Positions 100 to 49,900 of a DNA stretch of 49,900 nucleotides are shown piece after piece. Numbering within the stretch: position 1 is the stretch's first letter; each line of letters begins with the position of its first letter. A program made the translations under genes and the position numbers. The notes beneath the pieces were generated by a model. That model was not told the DNA's origin, did no database searches, and worked only from the letters and a program-made list of their open reading frames with translations. The DNA is taken from positions 1 through 49,900 of the IMG/VR virus record IMGVR_UViG_3300025430_000035. One strand, given 5' to 3'. The stretch is from a virus.

Positions 100-480
100 G
101 ATAATCAAGATAATCCGATTAACTCGATTATCAGATAATCAAATATAATAAATTCCTAAAGTTAATATAATATTATTTAGAATAATATTATCTTGCGAAG
201 GGCAAAAACGCCATATAACCCCCAGATAATCAAGATAATCAATTCCTAAAGTTAATATAATATTATTTTAGATAATAGAAACAAACTAGAATGAAAAATG
301 CGATATAATATTATCTCTAGGTTATAATCAGGAATAGATAATCAGATAATCAGGACAATATATAATCTTCCAGATAATCAGATAATCAAAAATGGATAAT
401 CAGACAGATAATCAGATAATAAATTTTCAGATAATCTGCCAGATAATCAGATAATATTATATTTAGATAATATTATCTAT
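100..480. repeat. GATAAT repeat array, candidate replication origin
   Basis: About 17 forward copies of GATAAT (often GATAATC) start at 100, 109, 134, 225, 234, 271, 337, 345, 373, 381, 395, 407, 415, 430, 442, 450 and 466. A few reversed copies are also present, for example 126-132 and 310-315. A 16-base perfect palindrome built from two copies lies at 464-479. Spacing is irregular, so this is not CRISPR. No ORF is convincing here. Repeated short boxes in AT-rich DNA next to the primase gene resemble an iteron-type origin or a binding region for a phage protein; the function is inferred. Confidence 0.7.
151..268. repeat. Pair of 28-base direct repeats
   Basis: Positions 151-178 and 241-268 are identical over 28 bases (beginning AATTCCTAAAG, ending TATTATTT). 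The period is 90 bases. The second copy is directly preceded by two GATAATC boxes. The pair lies inside the GATAAT array and may be part of the same origin or protein-binding region. Confidence 0.85.
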
Positions 481-16228: not shown

Positions 16229-19200
16229 TTACAATACTATCCATCTTGATCCACTTGGGACTGTAACTGTTATACCACCACTAATTGTAATTGCTCCTAC
16301 TGATGAAGCTGAATATCCTGTTGGAATTGTATAAGATGTTGCTACAGTCATATTATTTAAAACAAGACCATTACTTGCCAACAGTTCTGAAGCAGATAAC
16401 TCACCAGTAGATGGCTTAAATAAGTGTTTTGCATTGCTAGTATAGATAGTGCTGGCTGTGCCACTAGTTGCTGTTACTGATACTGGGTAAATATTAGTGC
16501 TAGTAGCTACATCATTACTAATAGAAATACTAGCCGCAGAGCTACCAGAATAGCCAGAATAACCAGAATAACCAGATACTCCACTACCACTATATCCACT
16601 AATACCAGAACCAGAATATCCTGAAATACCGCTAAATCCTGAATAGCCACTTGTGCCATTTGTTCCAGATATACCACTAAAACCTGAATATCCAGAAGTT
16701 CCAACAGCACCAGAATAGCCACTTATGCCTGAGAATCCGCTGTATCCGCTTACACCTGATCCACTATAGCCGCTGATGCCGCTGTAACCAGAATACCCAG
16801 ATACTCCAGATCCGCTGTAGCCAGAGTAACCAGAATAGCCAGATACTCCGCTTCCAGAATATCCGCTATATCCACTATAACCACTCACACCGCTACCAGA
16901 AAAACCGCTGATACCGCTGAACCCGGAATACCCACTAAAACCGCTTACACCACTTCCTGAGTATCCAGAATATCCACTTACACCACTTCCAGAATAACCG
17001 CTGTAACCACTTATTCCGCTAAATCCAGAATAGCCAGAAGTTCCGCTACCAGAGTAACCTGAATAGCCAGAGTAACCAGAAACGCCACTACCAGAAAAGC
17101 CACTATACCCGCTAATGCCAGAGAAACCAGAATAACCGCTTATACCGCTACCGCTGTAACCAGAATAACCTGATATGCCACTATAGCCAGAAAAACCACT
17201 AAATCCACTTGTTCCTACCGAACCTTGTAAATTAATAGTCCAAGGATATGTCCCCATGCCAGCGTAATTATTTACATTAAATGAAAATAATCCTGTTGTT
17301 GGGTTATAAGCAGTTACAGTTACATCTGCATAATTTGAAATATTATAAGCAATAATGGCTGTTTGACCAACAGTCCAACTTAATCCAGTACCAACAATAA
17401 TTGCACCATTTATATCACCTAAAGCAAAATCAGGATCAGTACTTGTAGTTGCATATTTGTCACTATAACCAGATGTTCCACTAAATCCAGAATAACCACT
17501 TATTCCGCTAAAGCCGCTATAACCTGAAATGCCAAAGCCAGAATAACCACTTATTCCTGAAAAACCAGAATAGCCACTTATTCCAGAAAATCCGCTAAAA
17601 CCAGAAATCCCACTATCGCCTGACCAGCCTGAAATTCCAGAAAAACCAGAAATTCCTGAATAACCAGAAAAACCAGAAATTCCGCTATAACCTGACCAAC
17701 CACTTATTCCATTTGCAATGGCAAAAATAATTGCTTGGTCATTAATAAATCCGGGTGCTGTGCCAGTACCAGCAGAAGAAACTAAAGTAACTGGAATAGT
17801 AAAATAACTGCCAACATTAGTTGGTGTTCCAGTAATTACCCAAGTTTGTGAATTTGCACTATTACTTTGATCTTGAATAACAAATTCTTCAGTTGTTGCA
17901 AGTAAAGCTAAAAATACATTAATGTCTACGCCATTTGCCGCTAAATTACTAACATTGATTTGAGTAGAAGCAACTTGTAATGCGTTATTCCAAAGCAAGT
18001 AATCAGAACCGGGATCACCGCTGTTTAAAATTGTATTAGCTTTGTAAAAGTAATAATTGCTGGATATGCCACTTGATCCAGAAAATCCAGATATGCCAGA
18101 ATACCCGCTAAATCCTGATATTCCGCTATCACCAGAAAAACCAGATATACCTGAATCGCCACTATATCCGCTATAGCCGCTAATTCCAGAATCACCTGAC
18201 CAGCCCGATATTCCGCTGTCGCCAGAAAAACCAGAGTATCCACTTATTCCGCTGTCACCTGAGTAGCCAGATATTCCTGAATCACCAGAGTAGCCCGATA
18301 TTCCGCTATCTCCGCTAAATCCAGATATTCCAGAGTCACCGCTAAAACCAGAATATCCCGAAATTCCTGAGTCACCAGAATAGCCAGAAATACCGCTATC
18401 ACCAGAAAATCCGCTAATACCACTATCGCCTGAAAATCCCGATATACCAGAATCACCAGAGTATCCAGAAATGCCCGAGTCGCCACTATAACCGCTGTAT
18501 CCCGACACGCCTGAACCAGAGTAACCGCTGATACCAGAATCTCCGCTAAAACCGCTGTAACCGCTTATTCCTGAATCACCGCTAAAGCCGCTTATGCCTG
18601 AATCTCCGCTATATCCGCTTTCGCCAGAGTAGCCGCTAAATCCTGAGTAACCAGAAAAACCTACAATTTGACCAGCATTGAACCATTCAGAACCATTCCA
18701 AACCCATAGGTCACCATCAGAATCAACAATATAAGCATCGTTAACTTGATTGCCAGTTGGTGGTAAATCTGCTGGGGTAGGAACAGAACCCAATAAATTA
18801 ATTGAAGTTCCTTGTTGACCACTATAGCCACTATAGCCAGAAAAACCAGAGTACCCAGAAGTGCTATCACCAGAATAGCCTGAAATTCCAGAATCTCCAG
18901 AATAACCAGAATCTCCCGAATAACCGCTAAACCCACTATAACCAGAATAACCAGAATAACCAGATGTTCCTACGCCTGAAAACTGTGTCCAAATAATGGG
19001 TGTTACATCAATTGTTCCTACTTTAGGAGCAATAACTATCCAACCTGTACCAGCATTAACAGTTCCATATTGAATAAAAGTAAAAGCACCGGGAACTTCA
19101 TCCCAGATGTTCATGTCAATTGATCTTGACCATTCTGTTTCAGAAGCTACATAAATACCATTTTGAGCAGTATTTTGTTGATCTTTTACGCAAACACGAT

Positions 19201-19750
19201 CACCAGCCACAATTTGATAGTTATCAACAATGGGTAATCCATAAAGATCAATATCCCCTTGTTCTGGAGTAGTTCCACATTGGCAAGAAGCTTTAGGGGT
19301 TAACCCTTGTGCTATTGCATCTACATACTCTTTGTTTGCTATATCAATAGGGTTTACAGGTAAGGTATCTATTTGACCTGTAACAGCAAACATATTTTGA
19401 AAAGCGGCTGAATAATAGCCATTTTCCATGCCATAAATTTGTACAAAGGCATCTGAAGAACCAGCAGTATCTAAGTTAACTGCAAAAGAACCAAAAGCCC
19501 ATGCTTGGGGAATAGTGTTCTCATCACCACGAATAACTGTAAATACATCACCAGTTCTAGCTGTTACTAAAACAATTTCATTTACTAAAGCATTAATAGC
19601 ACTAACCAAAGTGAGTTTAAATGCTTCATTAGCTTGTGGGTTTGGAAAGTACTGCCCTGTACCAGCCGCTACATAAATAGTTGTATCAGTAGAGCTTACT
19701 GGTAATGCAAGAGTGGTTTGCGCTTGATTGGCAAATAACAATATTGTCAT
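16229..19750 (-). CDS. Giant tail fibre with Ser-Gly-X triplet-repeat tracts
   Basis: 1173 residues. The N-terminal 1-110 (ANQAQTTLALPVSSTDTTI, VAAGTGQYFPNP, VIRGDE) match the start of the 384-aa fibre encoded downstream of it at 20368-21522, so both probably use the same virion anchor. Four SGX triplet tracts lie at residues 262-312, 364-564, 682-763 and 846-1071, with X mainly Y, F, I, D, V or W and no proline. They are broken by small globular domains (313-363, 565-681, 764-845). The C-terminus GAITI...VPSGSRWIVL recurs in the 193-aa protein at 24544-25125. It is probably a trimeric shaft with a receptor-binding tip. Confidence 0.85.
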   Translation of the reverse strand: MTILLFANQAQTTLALPVSSTDTTIYVAAGTGQYFPNPQANEAFKLTLVSAINALVNEIVLVTARTGDVFTVIRGDENTIPQAWAFGSFAVNLDTAGSSDAFVQIYGMENGYYSAAFQNMFAVTGQIDTLPVNPIDIANKEYVDAIAQGLTPKASCQCGTTPEQGDIDLYGLPIVDNYQIVAGDRVCVKDQQNTAQNGIYVASETEWSRSIDMNIWDEVPGAFTFIQYGTVNAGTGWIVIAPKVGTIDVTPIIWTQFSGVGTSGYSGYSGYSGFSGYSGDSGYSGDSGISGYSGDSTSGYSGFSGYSGYSGQQGTSINLLGSVPTPADLPPTGNQVNDAYIVDSDGDLWVWNGSEWFNAGQIVGFSGYSGFSGYSGESGYSGDSGISGFSGDSGISGYSGFSGDSGISGYSGSGVSGYSGYSGDSGISGYSGDSGISGFSGDSGISGFSGDSGISGYSGDSGISGYSGFSGDSGISGFSGDSGISGYSGDSGISGYSGDSGISGYSGFSGDSGISGWSGDSGISGYSGYSGDSGISGFSGDSGISGFSGYSGISGFSGSSGISSNYYFYKANTILNSGDPGSDYLLWNNALQVASTQINVSNLAANGVDINVFLALLATTEEFVIQDQSNSANSQTWVITGTPTNVGSYFTIPVTLVSSAGTGTAPGFINDQAIIFAIANGISGWSGYSGISGFSGYSGISGFSGISGWSGDSGISGFSGFSGISGYSGFSGISGYSGFGISGYSGFSGISGYSGFSGTSGYSDKYATTSTDPDFALGDINGAIIVGTGLSWTVGQTAIIAYNISNYADVTVTAYNPTTGLFSFNVNNYAGMGTYPWTINLQGSVGTSGFSGFSGYSGISGYSGYSGSGISGYSGFSGISGYSGFSGSGVSGYSGYSGYSGSGTSGYSGFSGISGYSGYSGSGVSGYSGYSGSGVSGFSGYSGFSGISGFSGSGVSGYSGYSGYSGSGVSGYSGYSGYSGSGVSGYSGYSGISGYSGSGVSGYSGFSGISGYSGAVGTSGYSGFSGISGTNGTSGYSGFSGISGYSGSGISGYSGSGVSGYSGYSGYSGSSAASISISNDVATSTNIYPVSVTATSGTASTIYTSNAKHLFKPSTGELSASELLASNGLVLNNMTVATSYTIPTGYSASSVGAITISGGITVTVPSGSRWIVL
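16538..17215 (-). repeat. Fibre repeat tract IV (SGX triplets)
   Basis: DNA encoding residues 846-1071 of the giant fibre, nearly all Ser-Gly-X. The dominant 9-base words encode GYS, GFS and GIS; SGSGV steps break the triplet phase at several points. Codons for the same residues vary, so selection appears to act on the protein pattern rather than on recent DNA duplication alone. Confidence 0.9.
17462..17707 (-). repeat. Fibre repeat tract III (SGX triplets)
   Basis: Encodes residues 682-763, rich in GISGFSGYSG and GYSGFSG units. It contains one phase break (GFGISG). Flanked by globular domains at 565-681 and 764-845. Confidence 0.9.
18059..18661 (-). repeat. Fibre repeat tract II (SGX triplets)
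   Basis: Encodes residues 364-564. GDSGISGYS and GDSGISGFS units dominate, giving a regular aspartate every few triplets that the other tracts mostly lack. The acidic pattern may bind cations or set a different shaft geometry. Confidence 0.9.
18815..18967 (-). repeat. Fibre repeat tract I (SGX triplets)
   Basis: Encodes residues 262-312, a short Ser-Gly-X tract right after the N-terminal globular region. It is followed by a small domain (residues 313-363, including PTPADLPPTGNQVNDAYIV and WVWNGSEW) of a kind often found between collagen-like stretches. Confidence 0.9.
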
Positions 19751-39928: not shown

Positions 39929-40747
39929 TTAGCGCTTAAAGTTTTCAGTATTAAACTTCATAACCCGATATGCTGGGAGTTTGAAATCACCTAACCATGC
40001 TTCCATATCACCACGGAACTCTGTGATGGTACGACCAGCGCGGTCTTTTTTGTGCAATTCGATCAATTGACCTTTTGCAATTGCACCTGTGCCACGGGAA
40101 GCGGCGATAGCGTCAGCATAAACACGCTTTTCAACGACTGCAAGCATAGCTTCGTCTTTGATAGCATTGATATTTACGTTCTTCATTTCGTCACTATGGG
40201 CTTGCAAACCACGAACCATACGCTTGCGATAAGCAGTTAAGCTTTCACCAGACAATGGACGTGAAGCAGATTTACCAAAAGCTGAATAGACAGAATCCGC
40301 TTTTGCTTGACAATCAGCCATTACAGCTTCATCTTCATCAGCTTTTTTAGCTTCTTCTTCATCATCATCATCTTTTTTGAACTCCATGTGACCCGGATGT
40401 TCAACTTCGCCTTCATCATCAGGCTTAATTTCACCTTCGTCATGCTCTTTAGGATCAGAGTGCTCTGCATCCTTCTTAGCTTTACGCATCATGAATTTCT
40501 TAGCCTTGGCTTCAGACATATCGTCATCATCCTTTTTCATGGCTTCTTCTTCATCATCGTCATCACAAGCTTCCATGTCATCGTCTTTTTTGGCTTTCTT
40601 TTTGTCAGCCGCTGTGACTAATGGTGGAGCAGGTAAGTTTTTTTCCATTTCATCTTGACGGGTAATTACTTGACCCAATAAAGACATAATGGCATCTAAT
40701 TTATCGCCTTGGGCATCTGCCTTTGGCTCAATCTTATTTTCAGTCAT
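39929..40747 (-). CDS. Scaffold-like acidic head protein
   Basis: 272 residues from ATG 40747, which overlaps the protease stop; the ATG-like start at 40762 lies inside that gene. Residues 45-145 are long Asp/Glu/Lys clusters (for example DDDDEEEAMKKDDDD) and probably disordered. Residues 155-272 form an ordered helical domain (SLTAYRKRMVRGLQAHSDEMK, DMEAWLGDFKLPAYRVMKF). Position between prohead protease and capsid suits a scaffold; the C-terminal domain may contact the capsid. Confidence 0.7.
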   Translation of the reverse strand: MTENKIEPKADAQGDKLDAIMSLLGQVITRQDEMEKNLPAPPLVTAADKKKAKKDDDMEACDDDDEEEAMKKDDDDMSEAKAKKFMMRKAKKDAEHSDPKEHDEGEIKPDDEGEVEHPGHMEFKKDDDDEEEAKKADEDEAVMADCQAKADSVYSAFGKSASRPLSGESLTAYRKRMVRGLQAHSDEMKNVNINAIKDEAMLAVVEKRVYADAIAASRGTGAIAKGQLIELHKKDRAGRTITEFRGDMEAWLGDFKLPAYRVMKFNTENFKR

Positions 40748-42110
40748 TTTCAGACACCTCATTGTTAGTTAATAAAACTCCAGTAGCATCGCCACCTTTG
40801 TCCCATACTCCTTTTGAACCCCTAGCTTTCGTTACGATTGCTATGTGATCCAGCAGAAATGGCACACCTTCTATCAAGAGTGGCTCGCCATTCTCAGTAG
40901 TAAGTGTAATGTTACCAGCCGTTTCGTCAAATACAACGGCTGGGGAAGTCGAAATTTCGCCTTCACAAATTTCAGTTATTGCTTCTTGATTGTAAATCTT
41001 GGCAATTCCCCATACTTCATCGCCCTTAATGTAAGGCAACATAACGCTACCTACAGCACGAAGTTTAAATTCTTCGGGGGTTAATACTTGCGTTTCGGGG
41101 TGATCCATAATGACCATTAATCCATTGCAACGCTTTAAAAACTCATCATTTAAATAAAGAGAAGGGTCACGCCAAACGTGTTCGCCAATGCTGGATCGGA
41201 AAGCTAAACCTGTCCCTGTAATACGAATAGCAAATAAGCCAATATTGGCGTACATTTGCGGACTAGCCAATACGCCTTCGCTAATTAACTGAGCTATATC
41301 GGTTTCCGTTTTGGCTTTTGCTACTTTAAACGCTATTTCCATACCGGGGTGTAATGGTGTTGGTGGTGTATTAATATTGCACCAATCATAGCCTGTAGAC
41401 TCATAGTTCAAAGTCACATTGCCTTTATCTACATCACGCGCGATATAAGTACAAAACTGCCCATCATCAAATAAAACTTCTAATTTGCCTTCATACTCTA
41501 AACCTGTTTCTTCCTTGCACTCGCGCCTAGCGGCGCTTTCAAGGTCTGCATCTTTTTCGTTTTGGTGTCCGCCGGGTACTGCCCATGTTTGTGGATAGTC
41601 CCCGCCATTACCACGGCGAATTAGCAATATTTCTTCATCTTTAGTGACAAACATAATACCCGCGCAACGCCCACGCGCCCCAGCATCATTGGCTACAGGC
41701 TCAACGATAGAAGGTTCTTCAGGTACAGTTTCTACGGAATCTTCTTTACAATCATTTTCAGGAACTTTATCTTCCTCGTTCCCAAGCTTTACAATTATTT
41801 CGTCAGATTTTATGCCGTTAATGTGCTGGGCAATTTGGCGAAGTTTATCCCCAATATCTTTAACTTGAAGTTTTTGTAGCTCATGGCTTAAATCAATATG
41901 AGCTTCAGGAGTTAATAGCTGTGGGGCTTCATCGCCTTTTAACAGCTTAACTTCCATTTCTTTTAATAGCAGTTCGTCAAGCCATTCAAGATCGTTATCG
42001 TCTTTATGTTTGACAAACTTTTCGCCTACTGATTTCGGAATACCAATATTGGAATGACCTGATGCCGCCGCATACATGGCTTTTCGTTGCTGTTCCGACT
42101 TGAATGGCAT
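40740..42110 (-). CDS. Prohead protease (DUF2213) with internal Nudix hydrolase domain
   Basis: 456 residues in three parts. Residues 1-36 (PFKSEQQRKAMYAAASGHSN...) are a common phage head-protein start. Residues 148-262 are a Nudix domain; the box GGHQNEKDADLESAARRECKEETGL keeps RExxEExG but has one extra residue before it. Residues 285-440 are DUF2213, with VIMDHPE (333-339). DUF2213 is the prohead maturation protease; the role of the Nudix part, perhaps nucleotide clean-up or NAD-type hydrolysis, is unknown. First gene after MuF-like. Confidence 0.83.
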   Translation of the reverse strand: MPFKSEQQRKAMYAAASGHSNIGIPKSVGEKFVKHKDDNDLEWLDELLLKEMEVKLLKGDEAPQLLTPEAHIDLSHELQKLQVKDIGDKLRQIAQHINGIKSDEIIVKLGNEEDKVPENDCKEDSVETVPEEPSIVEPVANDAGARGRCAGIMFVTKDEEILLIRRGNGGDYPQTWAVPGGHQNEKDADLESAARRECKEETGLEYEGKLEVLFDDGQFCTYIARDVDKGNVTLNYESTGYDWCNINTPPTPLHPGMEIAFKVAKAKTETDIAQLISEGVLASPQMYANIGLFAIRITGTGLAFRSSIGEHVWRDPSLYLNDEFLKRCNGLMVIMDHPETQVLTPEEFKLRAVGSVMLPYIKGDEVWGIAKIYNQEAITEICEGEISTSPAVVFDETAGNITLTTENGEPLLIEGVPFLLDHIAIVTKARGSKGVWDKGGDATGVLLTNNEVSEND

Positions 42111-46545: not shown

Positions 46546-46700
46546 ATAGCACCCAGCAACACGCAAACACGCAACCAGCACCAACCAAACACGCAACCCC
46601 CAGACACCCAGACACCTAGACCAGCACCTAGACCAGCACCTAGACCAGCACCTAGACCAGCACCCAGCACCCACCAAACCAGCCAAAATCCACCCCTAAA
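46546..46700. other. C/A-rich low-complexity non-coding stretch
   Basis: A stretch almost without G on the plus strand, made of words such as CACGCAAC, CCAGCA and ACCCAGAC. An ORF on either strand gives only low-complexity peptides (PRPAPRPAP or WSRCWSRC), so I do not call a gene. Confidence 0.6.
46615..46662. repeat. Four tandem copies of a 12-base unit
   Basis: CCTAGACCAGCA repeated four times without change, inside the C/A-rich stretch. Copy number at such sites often varies between relatives. Confidence 0.92.
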
Positions 46701-46783
46701 ACCTAAGTCAAATTGTCAATTGTCATTGCAAAAAAAGTCGTCACGGCTGGCGCACACCCACACCAACCCCATATATTGATTTT

Positions 46784-46813: not shown

Positions 46814-46958
46814 AATTTAGCCAAACAACCCCCCCAAAACCTGTATCTATATGGCTTGCGTGTTAAGTCATTTCACCCACCCAGAATGACAATCCAGACC
46901 CCATTTTTGACAATTTGACATAGCGTTTTAGCACTACGTCAAATTGTCAGAAAACAAT

Positions 46959-47041: not shown

Positions 47042-48547
47042 ATGGACTTACAAACCTACATTAGGAATTTTGGCAATAGCAGTAGCACTAACGCAGATAA
47101 GCGCGTTTTAATCCGTTCACGTTACGCACCAGACAGACGCGCCACACGTTATGAGCGCGCACTAGGCGCGTCCAGCGCGCAAAATCCTACGCGCTATCTA
47201 CGCGCTAAAGTCGCATGGAAAATACTGGGCAAAAACCTAACAGACGCGATACGCGATGAAGACCCCCAGAGCGCGCTAGACGTTATCAACCAGCATCTAA
47301 ACTTAGGGCGCGCGCGTTGGCTAGATACGTTGCGCGACTTATTTTTAGATCAATTTGACGAGTGCCATGACTGTGACGATTTATTTTTGGACGGCGATTT
47401 GTGCTCAATTTACGATGGGGATTACTACGTCTGCGAAGACTGCCGTTCTAGTAGATATCACTACTCAGACAGGCGCGATATGTACGTGGCAGACGATGAT
47501 ACGCAGGACGAAGACGAAGACGAAAGAGAGAATAATTCTGTTATCGGCGAATATCACTCAAGCAAACACGAATTAGGGCATATCCCCAGCAAGTATGACG
47601 ACAGGAAAACACGCGTCTTACTGGGACTTGAATTAGAGATGGAGATTGGTGAAGGATATGACCGCTACAACAAAGCAGGAGAGCTACTGGGCGCGCTGGG
47701 GTATCACACGGAAGCTGGCGCGCAGTACGCGCTCTGCGAGCAGGACGGATCACTAGATTGTGGCTTTGAAATGGTCACCGGATATACAGGGTTAGACGTT
47801 CACGCCCAGCAGTTAGCATTTTTCAAGCAAAGGTTTGCAGGTGCTAAATCGCACAACACTAGAACGTGCGGACTACACGTTCACGTCTGCAAAGCGGGAA
47901 TGTCATTACTACACGCAAGCAAATTAGTTTTGTTTATCAACGATGAAAAGAATCACGACCTTATTAAAACAATCGCCAGACGGACGGAATCGTCCTATAG
48001 CGTGTTTAAGGATAAGAGCGTGGATAAGTCGTGGATTAAAGACGCAGTACGCACCGCGCACCCAGAGACACGCGCAACGCAACCAGACGATTACGAACGC
48101 GACTACCGCAACGGGTCGCGCAAACGCAACGCGCTCCGCAATCTAAACTCTAGCCGTTACGAAGCCTTAAATTTTAATAACGAGAAGACAGTAGAATTTA
48201 GACTGTTTAAAGGCTCGCTCAAATACACAACTATTATGGCGTGTTTAGAGTTCTCGTTCATATCGTGGTTCTTTGCTCGTGATACGTCCCAGACGCAACT
48301 TACAACTGCGAATTTTCTGCAATACATCTGTTTGGAAAATAACAGACGCGATACCCGCTATCTGCGCGAGTATTTGTCGGAAAAGGGATATACGCTACCC
48401 TTTAAACCTAAAGCAGATACACGCGCCGACCAACTGCGCGCTGGCAATATTGTTGTTACAAAAATCGAAACAGTCACAGCAAGCAACGCGCCGTCTGGCG
48501 TCCGTCTTACTGGTATTTCAACAATCAACGACAACGAGGAATTCTAA
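47042..48547 (+). CDS. Amidoligase-family protein with N-terminal Cys4 region
   Basis: 501 residues; ATG with AGAGGAG upstream. Residues 1-100 are basic. C108-x2-C111 and C131-x2-C134 form a probable zinc site. An acidic linker follows (151-163). Residues 190-400 carry the Amidoligase_2 pattern of the glutamine synthetase-like ligase fold: LGLELEM (194-200), EQDGSLDCGFEMV (233-245), CGLHVHV (276-282) and VEFRLF (384-389). These enzymes use ATP to join a carboxyl group to an amine or ammonia. The next gene supplies a glutaminase, so ammonia from glutamine is the likely nitrogen donor. The acceptor may be a peptide, protein or cell-wall group; unknown. Confidence 0.82.
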   Translation: MDLQTYIRNFGNSSSTNADKRVLIRSRYAPDRRATRYERALGASSAQNPTRYLRAKVAWKILGKNLTDAIRDEDPQSALDVINQHLNLGRARWLDTLRDLFLDQFDECHDCDDLFLDGDLCSIYDGDYYVCEDCRSSRYHYSDRRDMYVADDDTQDEDEDERENNSVIGEYHSSKHELGHIPSKYDDRKTRVLLGLELEMEIGEGYDRYNKAGELLGALGYHTEAGAQYALCEQDGSLDCGFEMVTGYTGLDVHAQQLAFFKQRFAGAKSHNTRTCGLHVHVCKAGMSLLHASKLVLFINDEKNHDLIKTIARRTESSYSVFKDKSVDKSWIKDAVRTAHPETRATQPDDYERDYRNGSRKRNALRNLNSSRYEALNFNNEKTVEFRLFKGSLKYTTIMACLEFSFISWFFARDTSQTQLTTANFLQYICLENNRRDTRYLREYLSEKGYTLPFKPKADTRADQLRAGNIVVTKIETVTASNAPSGVRLTGISTINDNEEF

Positions 48548-48549
48548 TA

Positions 48550-49620
48550 ATGTGTCTACTAATCAACCAACCAACCACCGCGCCGGTACTACCAGCCCAT
48601 TGGCTCTCCGACTTTTTCAGTTATAACTCTGACGGCGTGGGCGTGATGTACTCGGAAAACAACTGTCTTATCATGGAGAAAATTCTCCCAAAAACAGACG
48701 CGGAATTTATTGCATTTTATAACGCGCATATTGCTGGGAAGGACTGCGCGTATCACCTACGCATGCGAACGCATGGCGACACCGACCTAGAGAATTGTCA
48801 CCCCTATATGGTCTTAAACCATGCAGAGCACGGCATGGATTTAGCCCTTATGCACAATGGGATTTTGAGTACTGGCAACAAAGCAGACCCCAGCAAGTCG
48901 GATACGTGGCATTACATACGTGATTATTTGCGTCCCATGCTATCTGGCAACCCTGAATTTTTTATGCACCCAGCCTTTTCTAAAATTGTTGGCGACCATA
49001 TAGGGTCTGGTAACAAGTTTGTTTTGATGGATAACGCGGGACGTGTCGCGACTATCAACCAGAACGCTGGCGTGTTTTGGGGAGGGTTATGGCTCTCCAA
49101 CACTTATGCGTGGACTGCGCCGTCCAATACCAGTAAGAGCGCGCCAGTAAGCAAGAAGGCGTCAAAACTGGTAAAGCTGGCAACCCAGCAAGTAAACCAA
49201 AAACCAATACGCCAGACCTACGCACCCACCTACGGATACTCTCGCGCTGGGTATGGTCTTGCTGGGTCGCAAGTATATCCAAGCTGGGACGACGACGGCG
49301 CGGGCTGGGAGGACAACTGGAAAACTACGCCCAGCACCCAGACCGGCGCGCGAAATACTCGCTGGGACTTTGACGACAACGTGGCGGAATATCTCATGGT
49401 CTTATCTGACATGGACTTAGACAAAGCGTCTAGCGTATCTCTAGCGTCCAGCGTTGATTTTGCGGAGATGTACGGAATAGACGCGTTCGCGGAGATTTGT
49501 GAAATGACAATAGACGGCGATATATCGGAGGAATGGTTCGTCAACCTGATAACAGACCCAGCCAAAGCGCGCGCGACTTTCGCGTGGCTTAAACCCTTAA
49601 ACAATTACGAGGACGCATGA
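48550..49620 (+). CDS. Class II glutamine amidotransferase (Ntn hydrolase)
   Basis: 356 residues. MCLLI puts the catalytic cysteine at position 2, to be exposed after Met removal, which fixes the start; GAGGA lies upstream. Family marks: YNSDGVGVMY (25-34), HLRMRTHGDTDLENCHPY (69-86), LMHNGIL (100-106), SDTWHYIRD (117-125), and FVLMDNAGRVATIN (157-170). It should free ammonia from glutamine. The C-terminal 160 residues are a linker plus an acidic helical region of no known family, possibly for docking with the amidoligase. The start is two bases after the amidoligase stop, so the two are co-translated. Confidence 0.87.
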   Translation: MCLLINQPTTAPVLPAHWLSDFFSYNSDGVGVMYSENNCLIMEKILPKTDAEFIAFYNAHIAGKDCAYHLRMRTHGDTDLENCHPYMVLNHAEHGMDLALMHNGILSTGNKADPSKSDTWHYIRDYLRPMLSGNPEFFMHPAFSKIVGDHIGSGNKFVLMDNAGRVATINQNAGVFWGGLWLSNTYAWTAPSNTSKSAPVSKKASKLVKLATQQVNQKPIRQTYAPTYGYSRAGYGLAGSQVYPSWDDDGAGWEDNWKTTPSTQTGARNTRWDFDDNVAEYLMVLSDMDLDKASSVSLASSVDFAEMYGIDAFAEICEMTIDGDISEEWFVNLITDPAKARATFAWLKPLNNYEDA

Positions 49621-49730
49621 TGGAAAACAATAAACAACCAACAATCTGGGACATACTAGGCGCGTGTCTATTAGGTGCGCTACTAAGCGCAGTTCTATTC
49701 TGGGAGCATATCCCCGCGCTATTTAGATAA
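49617..49730 (+). CDS. Small membrane protein of the amidoligase operon, 37 aa
   Basis: Start ATG 49617 (or 49620) overlaps the amidotransferase stop. MMENNKQPTIWDILG is followed by one hydrophobic segment (ACLLGALLSAVLFW) and EHIPALFR, so a single-pass membrane protein is likely. As the third gene of the operon it may place the ligase pair at the membrane, which would fit a cell-envelope substrate, but this is inference. Confidence 0.6.
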   Translation: MMENNKQPTIWDILGACLLGALLSAVLFWEHIPALFR

Positions 49731-49749: not shown

Positions 49750-49777
49750 AGACCCGCCTAGTGCGGGTCTTTTTTTG
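49750..49777 (+). terminator. Rho-independent terminator of the amidoligase operon
   Basis: Perfect stem AGACCCGC (49750-49757) with GCGGGTCT (49763-49770), loop CTAGT, then seven T. It ends the three-gene rightward operon 20 bases after the last stop. Confidence 0.95.
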
Positions 49778-49815: not shown

Positions 49816-49849
49816 GTATGTCAAAAACCCCCCCAGTTTTAACAAACAA

Positions 49850-49900
49850 CCCAGACCCAGACCCAGACCCAGACCCAGACCCAGACCCAGACCCAGACCC
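49850..49900. repeat. Right terminal tandem repeat, unit CCCAGA
   Basis: Eight and a half perfect copies of CCCAGA run to the last base of the window. Read inward on the minus strand this is GGGTCT repeated, which shares its first six bases with the GGGTCTCC unit at the left end. The true length is unknown because the window ends inside it. Confidence 0.95.

Follow-up and report, generated by a model that had tools for sequence, protein, structure and literature searches.

Gene organization of the locus

The window analysed here is the whole of IMG/VR record IMGVR_UViG_3300025430_000035 (49,900 bp), which derives from a freshwater bacterial virus. Matches to tail sheath, baseplate wedge and baseplate hub proteins among its ORFs identify a contractile-tailed phage, as had been proposed in an earlier interpretation made from the nucleotide sequence alone (hereafter the sequence-only reading). 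Three tightly packed ORFs on the plus strand, divergent from the terminase genes, lie at the right end of the window and are predicted to encode an amidoligase, a class II glutamine amidotransferase (GATase) and a short membrane peptide (Table 1). The first two ORFs are separated by 2 nt, and the third is probably translationally coupled to the GATase gene through an ATGA overlap. The coordinates and lengths of the three ORFs agreed with the earlier description, as did the presence of a GC-rich stem with a T tract behind them.

The three copies of TCAAATTGTCA in the promoter region of the pair are the only exact matches in the window, and the closest relatives (L003, L005, L006 and L007) carry the motif once or more at a comparable distance ahead of the pair. 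A scan for sigma-70 promoters gave no signal clearly above chance, and searches of the window for Rfam families and tRNAs returned no matches. Further upstream of the pair, an intergenic tandem array of the 12-bp unit CCAGCACCTAGA was observed (4.7 copies).

Table 1 Location of the features at the locus, elsewhere in the record and in related bacterial elements
Feature	Location	Strand	Description
GS-like amidoligase (predicted), 501 aa	47042..48547	+	Cys4 zinc ribbon followed by ligase domain; PF12224, phrog_2443, residues, fold
Class II GATase (predicted), 356 aa	48550..49620	+	Cys2, Ntn-hydrolase fold; residues, profile, model
Lineage-specific single-pass membrane peptide (predicted), 37 aa	49617..49730	+	Hydrophobic segment; ATGA overlap with GATase gene
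Intrinsic-terminator-like stem	49750..49770	+	8 pairs, 6 of them GC, loop of 5, then T run
TCAAATTGTCA, three exact copies	46708-46718; 46908-46918; 46939-46949	+; -; +	Candidate operators; promoter region of the pair
CCAGCACCTAGA array	46608-46664		Intergenic
Terminal tandem repeats	1-99; 49849-49900		(GGGTCTCC)x12.4; (ACCCAG)x8.7
1173-aa ORF	16229-19750	-	SGYSGFSG repeats
456-aa ORF	40740-42110	-	NUDIX domain, then DUF2213
Amidoligase domains	Residues C108, C111, C131, C134; about 184-451		Cys4; ligase domain
Amidoligase motifs	Residues 197/199; 235-237; 279-281; R314; R372; 385/387		ExE; DGS; HVH; Arg; Arg; ExR
GATase domains	Residues about 1-200; 224-269; about 270-345		Catalytic; disordered linker; C-terminal helical
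Polynucleobacter elements	L166:6612-15252; L167:7084-15632; L168:7816-19055		Integrase, pair, cargo slot, relaxase or T4SS genes
Ignavibacteriae elements	L191:4038-14460; L208:5039-19610		Shared backbone, differing defence cargo

The 37-aa peptide (dN/dS 0.12–0.25) is conserved in the closest relatives only (L002, L005, L006, L025 and L026), and elsewhere the gene after the pair encodes a different small membrane peptide or a 30-aa zinc-ribbon peptide, or is an unrelated ORF. It is not a conserved part of the operon, and a role as an essential third component is ruled out because relatives hold other genes in this slot. In seven loci (L045–L048, L060, L079 and L094) the ORF immediately after the GATase gene encodes a zinc-ribbon peptide of 29–40 aa (LRCPICSRxKRWG...C..C).

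Sequence and predicted structure of the two enzymes

The 501-aa protein matched Amidoligase_2 (PF12224; 36.7 bits against a cut-off of 22, E=5.3e-9) and phrog_2443, 'amidoligase enzyme' (E=1.9e-12). When 90 amidoligases from viruses and bacteria were aligned, residues E197, E199, D235, S237, H279, H281, R314, R372, E385 and R387 were invariant, and the four cysteines, located upstream of the catalytic residues, were conserved in at least 90% of the sequences. The AlphaFold model (pLDDT 84.5) was compared to the PDB using Foldseek, where the top 21 matches were all glutamine synthetase (GS) or GmaS structures, albeit with a best E-value of only 2.5e-3; VIA-align gave Z scores of about 12 to both YbdK and GS, and a plant glutamate-cysteine ligase ranked together with YbdK among the structural matches. 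In BFVD the model matched phage amidoligases with E-values down to 2e-17 and also a phage 'LIM domain containing protein'; the Cys4 ribbon itself is weakly similar to LIM and ZZ zinc fingers. We take the protein to be a GS-like amidoligase whose catalytic residues are predicted to be intact, and the ELE, EQDGS, GLHVH and EFR motifs that had been noted behind a Cys4 site are borne out by the PF12224 match, the invariant residues and the GS-like fold of the model.

The GATase is more difficult to place by profile, as the Pfam GATase_4 match of the 356-aa protein fell below threshold (18.2 bits against a cut-off of 23, E=0.0013). A profile built from 60 members of the family, on the other hand, found Bacillus subtilis PurF (1e-5) and human GFAT-1 (0.0034) in the PDB, so the profile search proposed for a type II GATase succeeded with our own profile and stayed below threshold with the Pfam one. 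Since the protein is divergent in sequence, its assignment to class II rests on residues and fold. Residues C2, R71, T74, N103, G104 and D118 were invariant among the 60 GATases, with H75 and G76 conserved in at least 90%, and the invariant positions correspond to the predicted catalytic Cys2, glutamine-binding and oxyanion residues. The model (pLDDT 85.2, mostly above 90 in the catalytic part) matched the fold of GlmS (E=2.9e-6), and the structural matches comprised GlmS (Z 11.9), EgtC (Z 11.7) and PurF (Z 10). These results agree with the MC start and the THG and HNG motifs recognized in the sequence-only reading, and we take the protein to be a divergent class II GATase of Ntn-hydrolase fold with an intact predicted active site. 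In close relatives, dN/dS was 0.05–0.13 for the amidoligase and the GATase alike, and both enzymes are thus under purifying selection.

Pairing and mobility among viruses

As tblastn searches with the window proteins reached only 4 and 3 phage records, respectively, profiles were used to find further members. Among the best 80 of 139 IMG/VR contigs in the amidoligase profile scan, three ended before the downstream gene was visible, and in all of the remaining 77 testable contigs the GATase gene directly followed the amidoligase gene at a distance of 2–97 nt. The reverse scan with the GATase found the two genes adjacent in 77 of 80 contigs, with one contig ending early and two measured as apart, the latter two being counted as adjacent in the forward scan. 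No amidoligase–GATase fusion was found in the ORFs of 246 sequences. The distance matrices of the two proteins were correlated with r=0.93 over 54 loci and 0.85 over 48 core loci. In the flanks that were fetched, the two genes are all that most carrier contigs have in common with the window phage, and the pair therefore moves as a unit. Phages and integrative elements alike carry it as an accessory module that is mobile and whose two genes stay together. With a GS-like fold of the ligase, an Ntn-hydrolase fold of the Cys2 protein and conservation as a pair in relatives, none of the outcomes named in advance as refuting the sequence-only reading was observed. Some bacterial Amidoligase_2 genes have no recognisable partner GATase, so the ligase family as such does not always need one. 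In MW202828 and C75C1 a GATase relative is annotated as a gamma-glutamyl cyclotransferase.

Comparison with described systems

Pairs of this kind have been noted repeatedly in phages. The literature includes OM43 phages (PMC10580990), RIO-1, PSA-HP1 and phiEco32, which carry a larger cassette (PMC5498523), and a Pseudomonas aeruginosa phage (PMC11945000), in each case with a proposed role in the cell wall and superinfection; amidoligase/GATase pairs have also been noted in the LUZ24-like phages UFV-P2 and tf. These papers take over an idea that is traced to Iyer et al. (2009), cited for it in PMC10580990, and to Hardies et al. (2013), namely that the genes alter peptidoglycan and block superinfection. 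The interpretation in terms of amidation and superinfection is consequently not new: the earlier statement that no function had been described for such a pair is wrong in so far as a prediction has been in print since 2009, and it holds in so far as no experimental test of a cell-wall role of the phage amidoligase/GATase was found in the literature searched.

The OM43 phages MEP401 and MEP402 and the podovirus MW202733 are the closest parallels in gene content. Each encodes an N-terminally extended amidoligase next to a class II GATase, with the gene order of the window, and as in the window no COOH-NH2 ligase or gamma-glutamyl cyclotransferase was found; they differ in being podoviruses or Zobellviridae and in sharing only 26–32% identity with the window amidoligase and 24–29% with the GATase. 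The 'peptidoglycan modification cassette' of LUZ24, phiEco32, RIO-1 and PSA-HP1 likewise combines an Amidoligase_2-type ligase with a class II GATase, but the LUZ24/phiEco32 type additionally has a COOH-NH2 ligase, an ATP-grasp enzyme and a gamma-glutamyl cyclotransferase. LUZ24 and phiEco32 both carry the COOH-NH2 ligase (PF14395) and the cyclotransferase (PF06094), and an ATP-grasp protein is annotated in both, whereas neither PF14395 nor PF06094 was found in the window or in 22 further records with the pair, some of which may be fragments. RimK (PF08443) found no match in the window and none above cut-off in the 23 records, where a single match below the cut-off lies close to the pair in G006/L081; this test is weak, because the model missed LUZ24's own annotated ATP-grasp protein and the records may be fragments. 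Since the tested records yielded neither a COOH-NH2 ligase nor a cyclotransferase, and RimK did not reach the cut-off in any of them, this ligase is the one evident partner left for the GATase. The enzymes of the LUZ24/phiEco32 cassette are moreover only remotely like those of the window, and the GATases of LUZ24 and phiEco32 gave no more than marginal matches to the window-type profile (E 7.9e-4 and 7.2e-5, respectively). The window pair is a reduced two-gene variant, common to MEP401/MEP402 and MW202733. A further counterpart, with about 30% identity, exists in the Marvin group of mycobacteriophages, which infect actinobacterial hosts: Tesla 109 is a GATase relative, and the adjacent Tesla 108 is labelled GATase although its predicted fold matches an amidoligase.

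Related combinations are also known from cellular metabolism. EgtA is the GS-like ligase of ergothioneine biosynthesis, and EgtA/EgtC combines such a ligase with a class II GATase-like Ntn hydrolase, as in the window; EgtC is, however, a gamma-glutamyl hydrolase rather than an ammonia donor, and no Egt pathway genes were seen in the window. In enzymes of the AsnB/LtsA type, glutaminase-derived ammonia is passed to an ATP-dependent ligase to give a carboxamide product in cell-wall synthesis. In MurT/GatD (PMC3267633), too, a glutaminase supplies ammonia to an ATP-dependent, carboxamide-forming ligase. Both differ from the window pair in their ligase folds (an asparagine-synthetase domain and a Mur ligase, respectively), and the GATase of MurT/GatD belongs to class I.

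Bacterial integrative elements and neighbouring defence genes

Three Polynucleobacter isolates carry the pair at the same chromosomal site, where it adjoins a tyrosine integrase gene and is followed at some distance by a gene for a relaxase or T4SS coupling protein. Two of these elements (L166 and L167) encode SIR2 and HerA after the pair (PADLOC 7e-85 and 1e-183), and in the third (L168) the same slot is held by a 416-aa gene of no assigned family. The amidoligases of Polynucleobacter fall within the clade formed by phage sequences, and the module has therefore passed between phages and integrative elements. An unrelated element family was found in two Ignavibacteriae genomes, in which a resolvase, a TraG/HerA-like ATPase, the pair and an AAA/Cdc6-like gene are kept at 75–92% identity, while the adjoining cargo differs, with QatBCD in one genome and a short Argonaute with REase-APAZ in the other. 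Both families keep a recombinase and the pair and swap their defence cargo. What this analysis adds is the presence of the pair in integrative elements of bacteria, where it adjoins their recombinase and a slot with a differing defence system. In a Victivallis locus a type IV restriction enzyme is encoded 2.7 kb downstream of the pair.

The pair is rare in bacteria, being found in 2 of 398 genomes of the family of Polynucleobacter and 2 of 395 genomes of the phylum of Ignavibacteriae; only the seed genomes were recovered in both samplings, so few loci underlie the bacterial association with defence. Searched against plasmids, the GATase of Polynucleobacter yielded only two matches, both weak. 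PADLOC matches at E<=1e-25 were obtained for 10 of 18 pair neighbours as compared to about 5 of 100 random genes from the same genomes (Fisher 9e-7), or for 8 of 18 when reverse transcriptase and PDC matches were left out (Fisher 5e-5), a statistic that is biased because the neighbours were hand-picked, those sharing an operon do not count independently, L166 and L167 nearly duplicate each other and defence genes are common on mobile elements. The bacterial setting of the pair is in this sense suggestively defence-rich, and proximity alone says little, such genes being frequent cargo of mobile elements. None of the three window proteins was matched by any model in PADLOC 2.0.0, and membership in a PADLOC defence family was rejected.

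Proposed function

The window carries a real, well-conserved reduced variant of a known phage gene pair rather than an unprecedented one, and its integrative-element and defence context adds to its interest. We consider it about 45% probable that the pair is a cytosolic two-component, glutamine-dependent ATP-amidoligase that serves as a mobile module against the host or competing elements. In this scheme the N-terminal Cys2 of the GATase would release ammonia from glutamine, and the GS-like ligase would activate a substrate carboxylate with ATP as an acyl phosphate and capture the ammonia to give a carboxamide; the zinc ribbon would probably help to recognise the substrate. Partnership and ammonia transfer between the enzymes are suggested by the pairing together with the chemistry of the two families. 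The well-supported enzyme families (profiles, residues and folds) and the strict pairing hence lend support to the 'self-contained amidation system' put forward in the sequence-only reading, with the caution that a pair of the same folds performs different chemistry in EgtA/EgtC. The module would act in host takeover or in competition between mobile elements rather than in virion assembly. Our leading guess for the substrate, a weakly supported one, is a cytosolic envelope or peptidoglycan precursor, whose amidation might exclude superinfecting elements; it is favoured because it would explain both the published superinfection idea and the carriage by integrative elements. The reduction to two genes removes the other candidate enzymes, so that two genes and two point mutants suffice to probe the chemistry, and carriage beside swappable defence genes makes the superinfection idea directly testable.

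The conserved ribbon may instead steer the ligase to a protein, in which case it would amidate, or join an amine to, a carboxylate of a host or immunity protein and act as an early takeover or anti-defence factor of phages and integrative elements. The conservation of the Cys4 site in phage and bacterial amidoligases alike, its weak likeness to LIM/ZZ fingers together with the phage 'LIM domain containing protein' among the structural matches, the carriage beside recombinase and defence cargo, and the lack of a link between the pair and secretion or lysis are all consistent with this, but zinc ribbons are common, and we regard a protein target as possible, if doubtful. Gamma-glutamyl chemistry of the EgtA/EgtC kind, with the ligase forming an amino-acid amide bond and the GATase-like enzyme removing a glutamyl group instead of supplying ammonia, would account for EgtC tying with GlmS as the best structural match of the GATase, for the presence of YbdK and plant glutamate-cysteine ligase among the ligase matches and for the gamma-glutamyl cyclotransferase of some phage cassettes. 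That cyclotransferase was, however, not found in the pair-carrying records, and a glutaminase and a gamma-glutamyl hydrolase are inseparable by sequence or fold; such chemistry appears distinctly unlikely. Highly improbable, finally, is an auxiliary role in the nitrogen assimilation or recycling of the host during infection, of the kind suggested for the planctomycete phage Phage-ZRK32, which encodes an amidoligase, a GATase, a glutathione synthase and a gamma-glutamyl cyclotransferase (PMC10945688): transfer from glutamine via ammonia to an amide gives no net assimilation, no other nitrogen genes were seen among the annotated ORFs of the window, and the presence of the pair next to defence genes on integrative elements agrees poorly with it.

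Within the favoured reading of a glutamine-dependent amidation module, a more specific version is that the pair constitutes an undescribed exclusion or immunity module, common to phages and integrative elements, which would amidate a cell component and thereby keep others out or shield its carrier, and which in bacteria would anchor a hotspot where the neighbouring defence system is swapped; in this full form we hold it to be unlikely.

Other features of the record

Both termini of the record consist of tandem repeats, which are either real termini or assembly breaks. The 1173-aa ORF has collagen-like repeats and probably encodes a tail fibre, and the 456-aa ORF, located among the head genes, has an unusual combination of domains.
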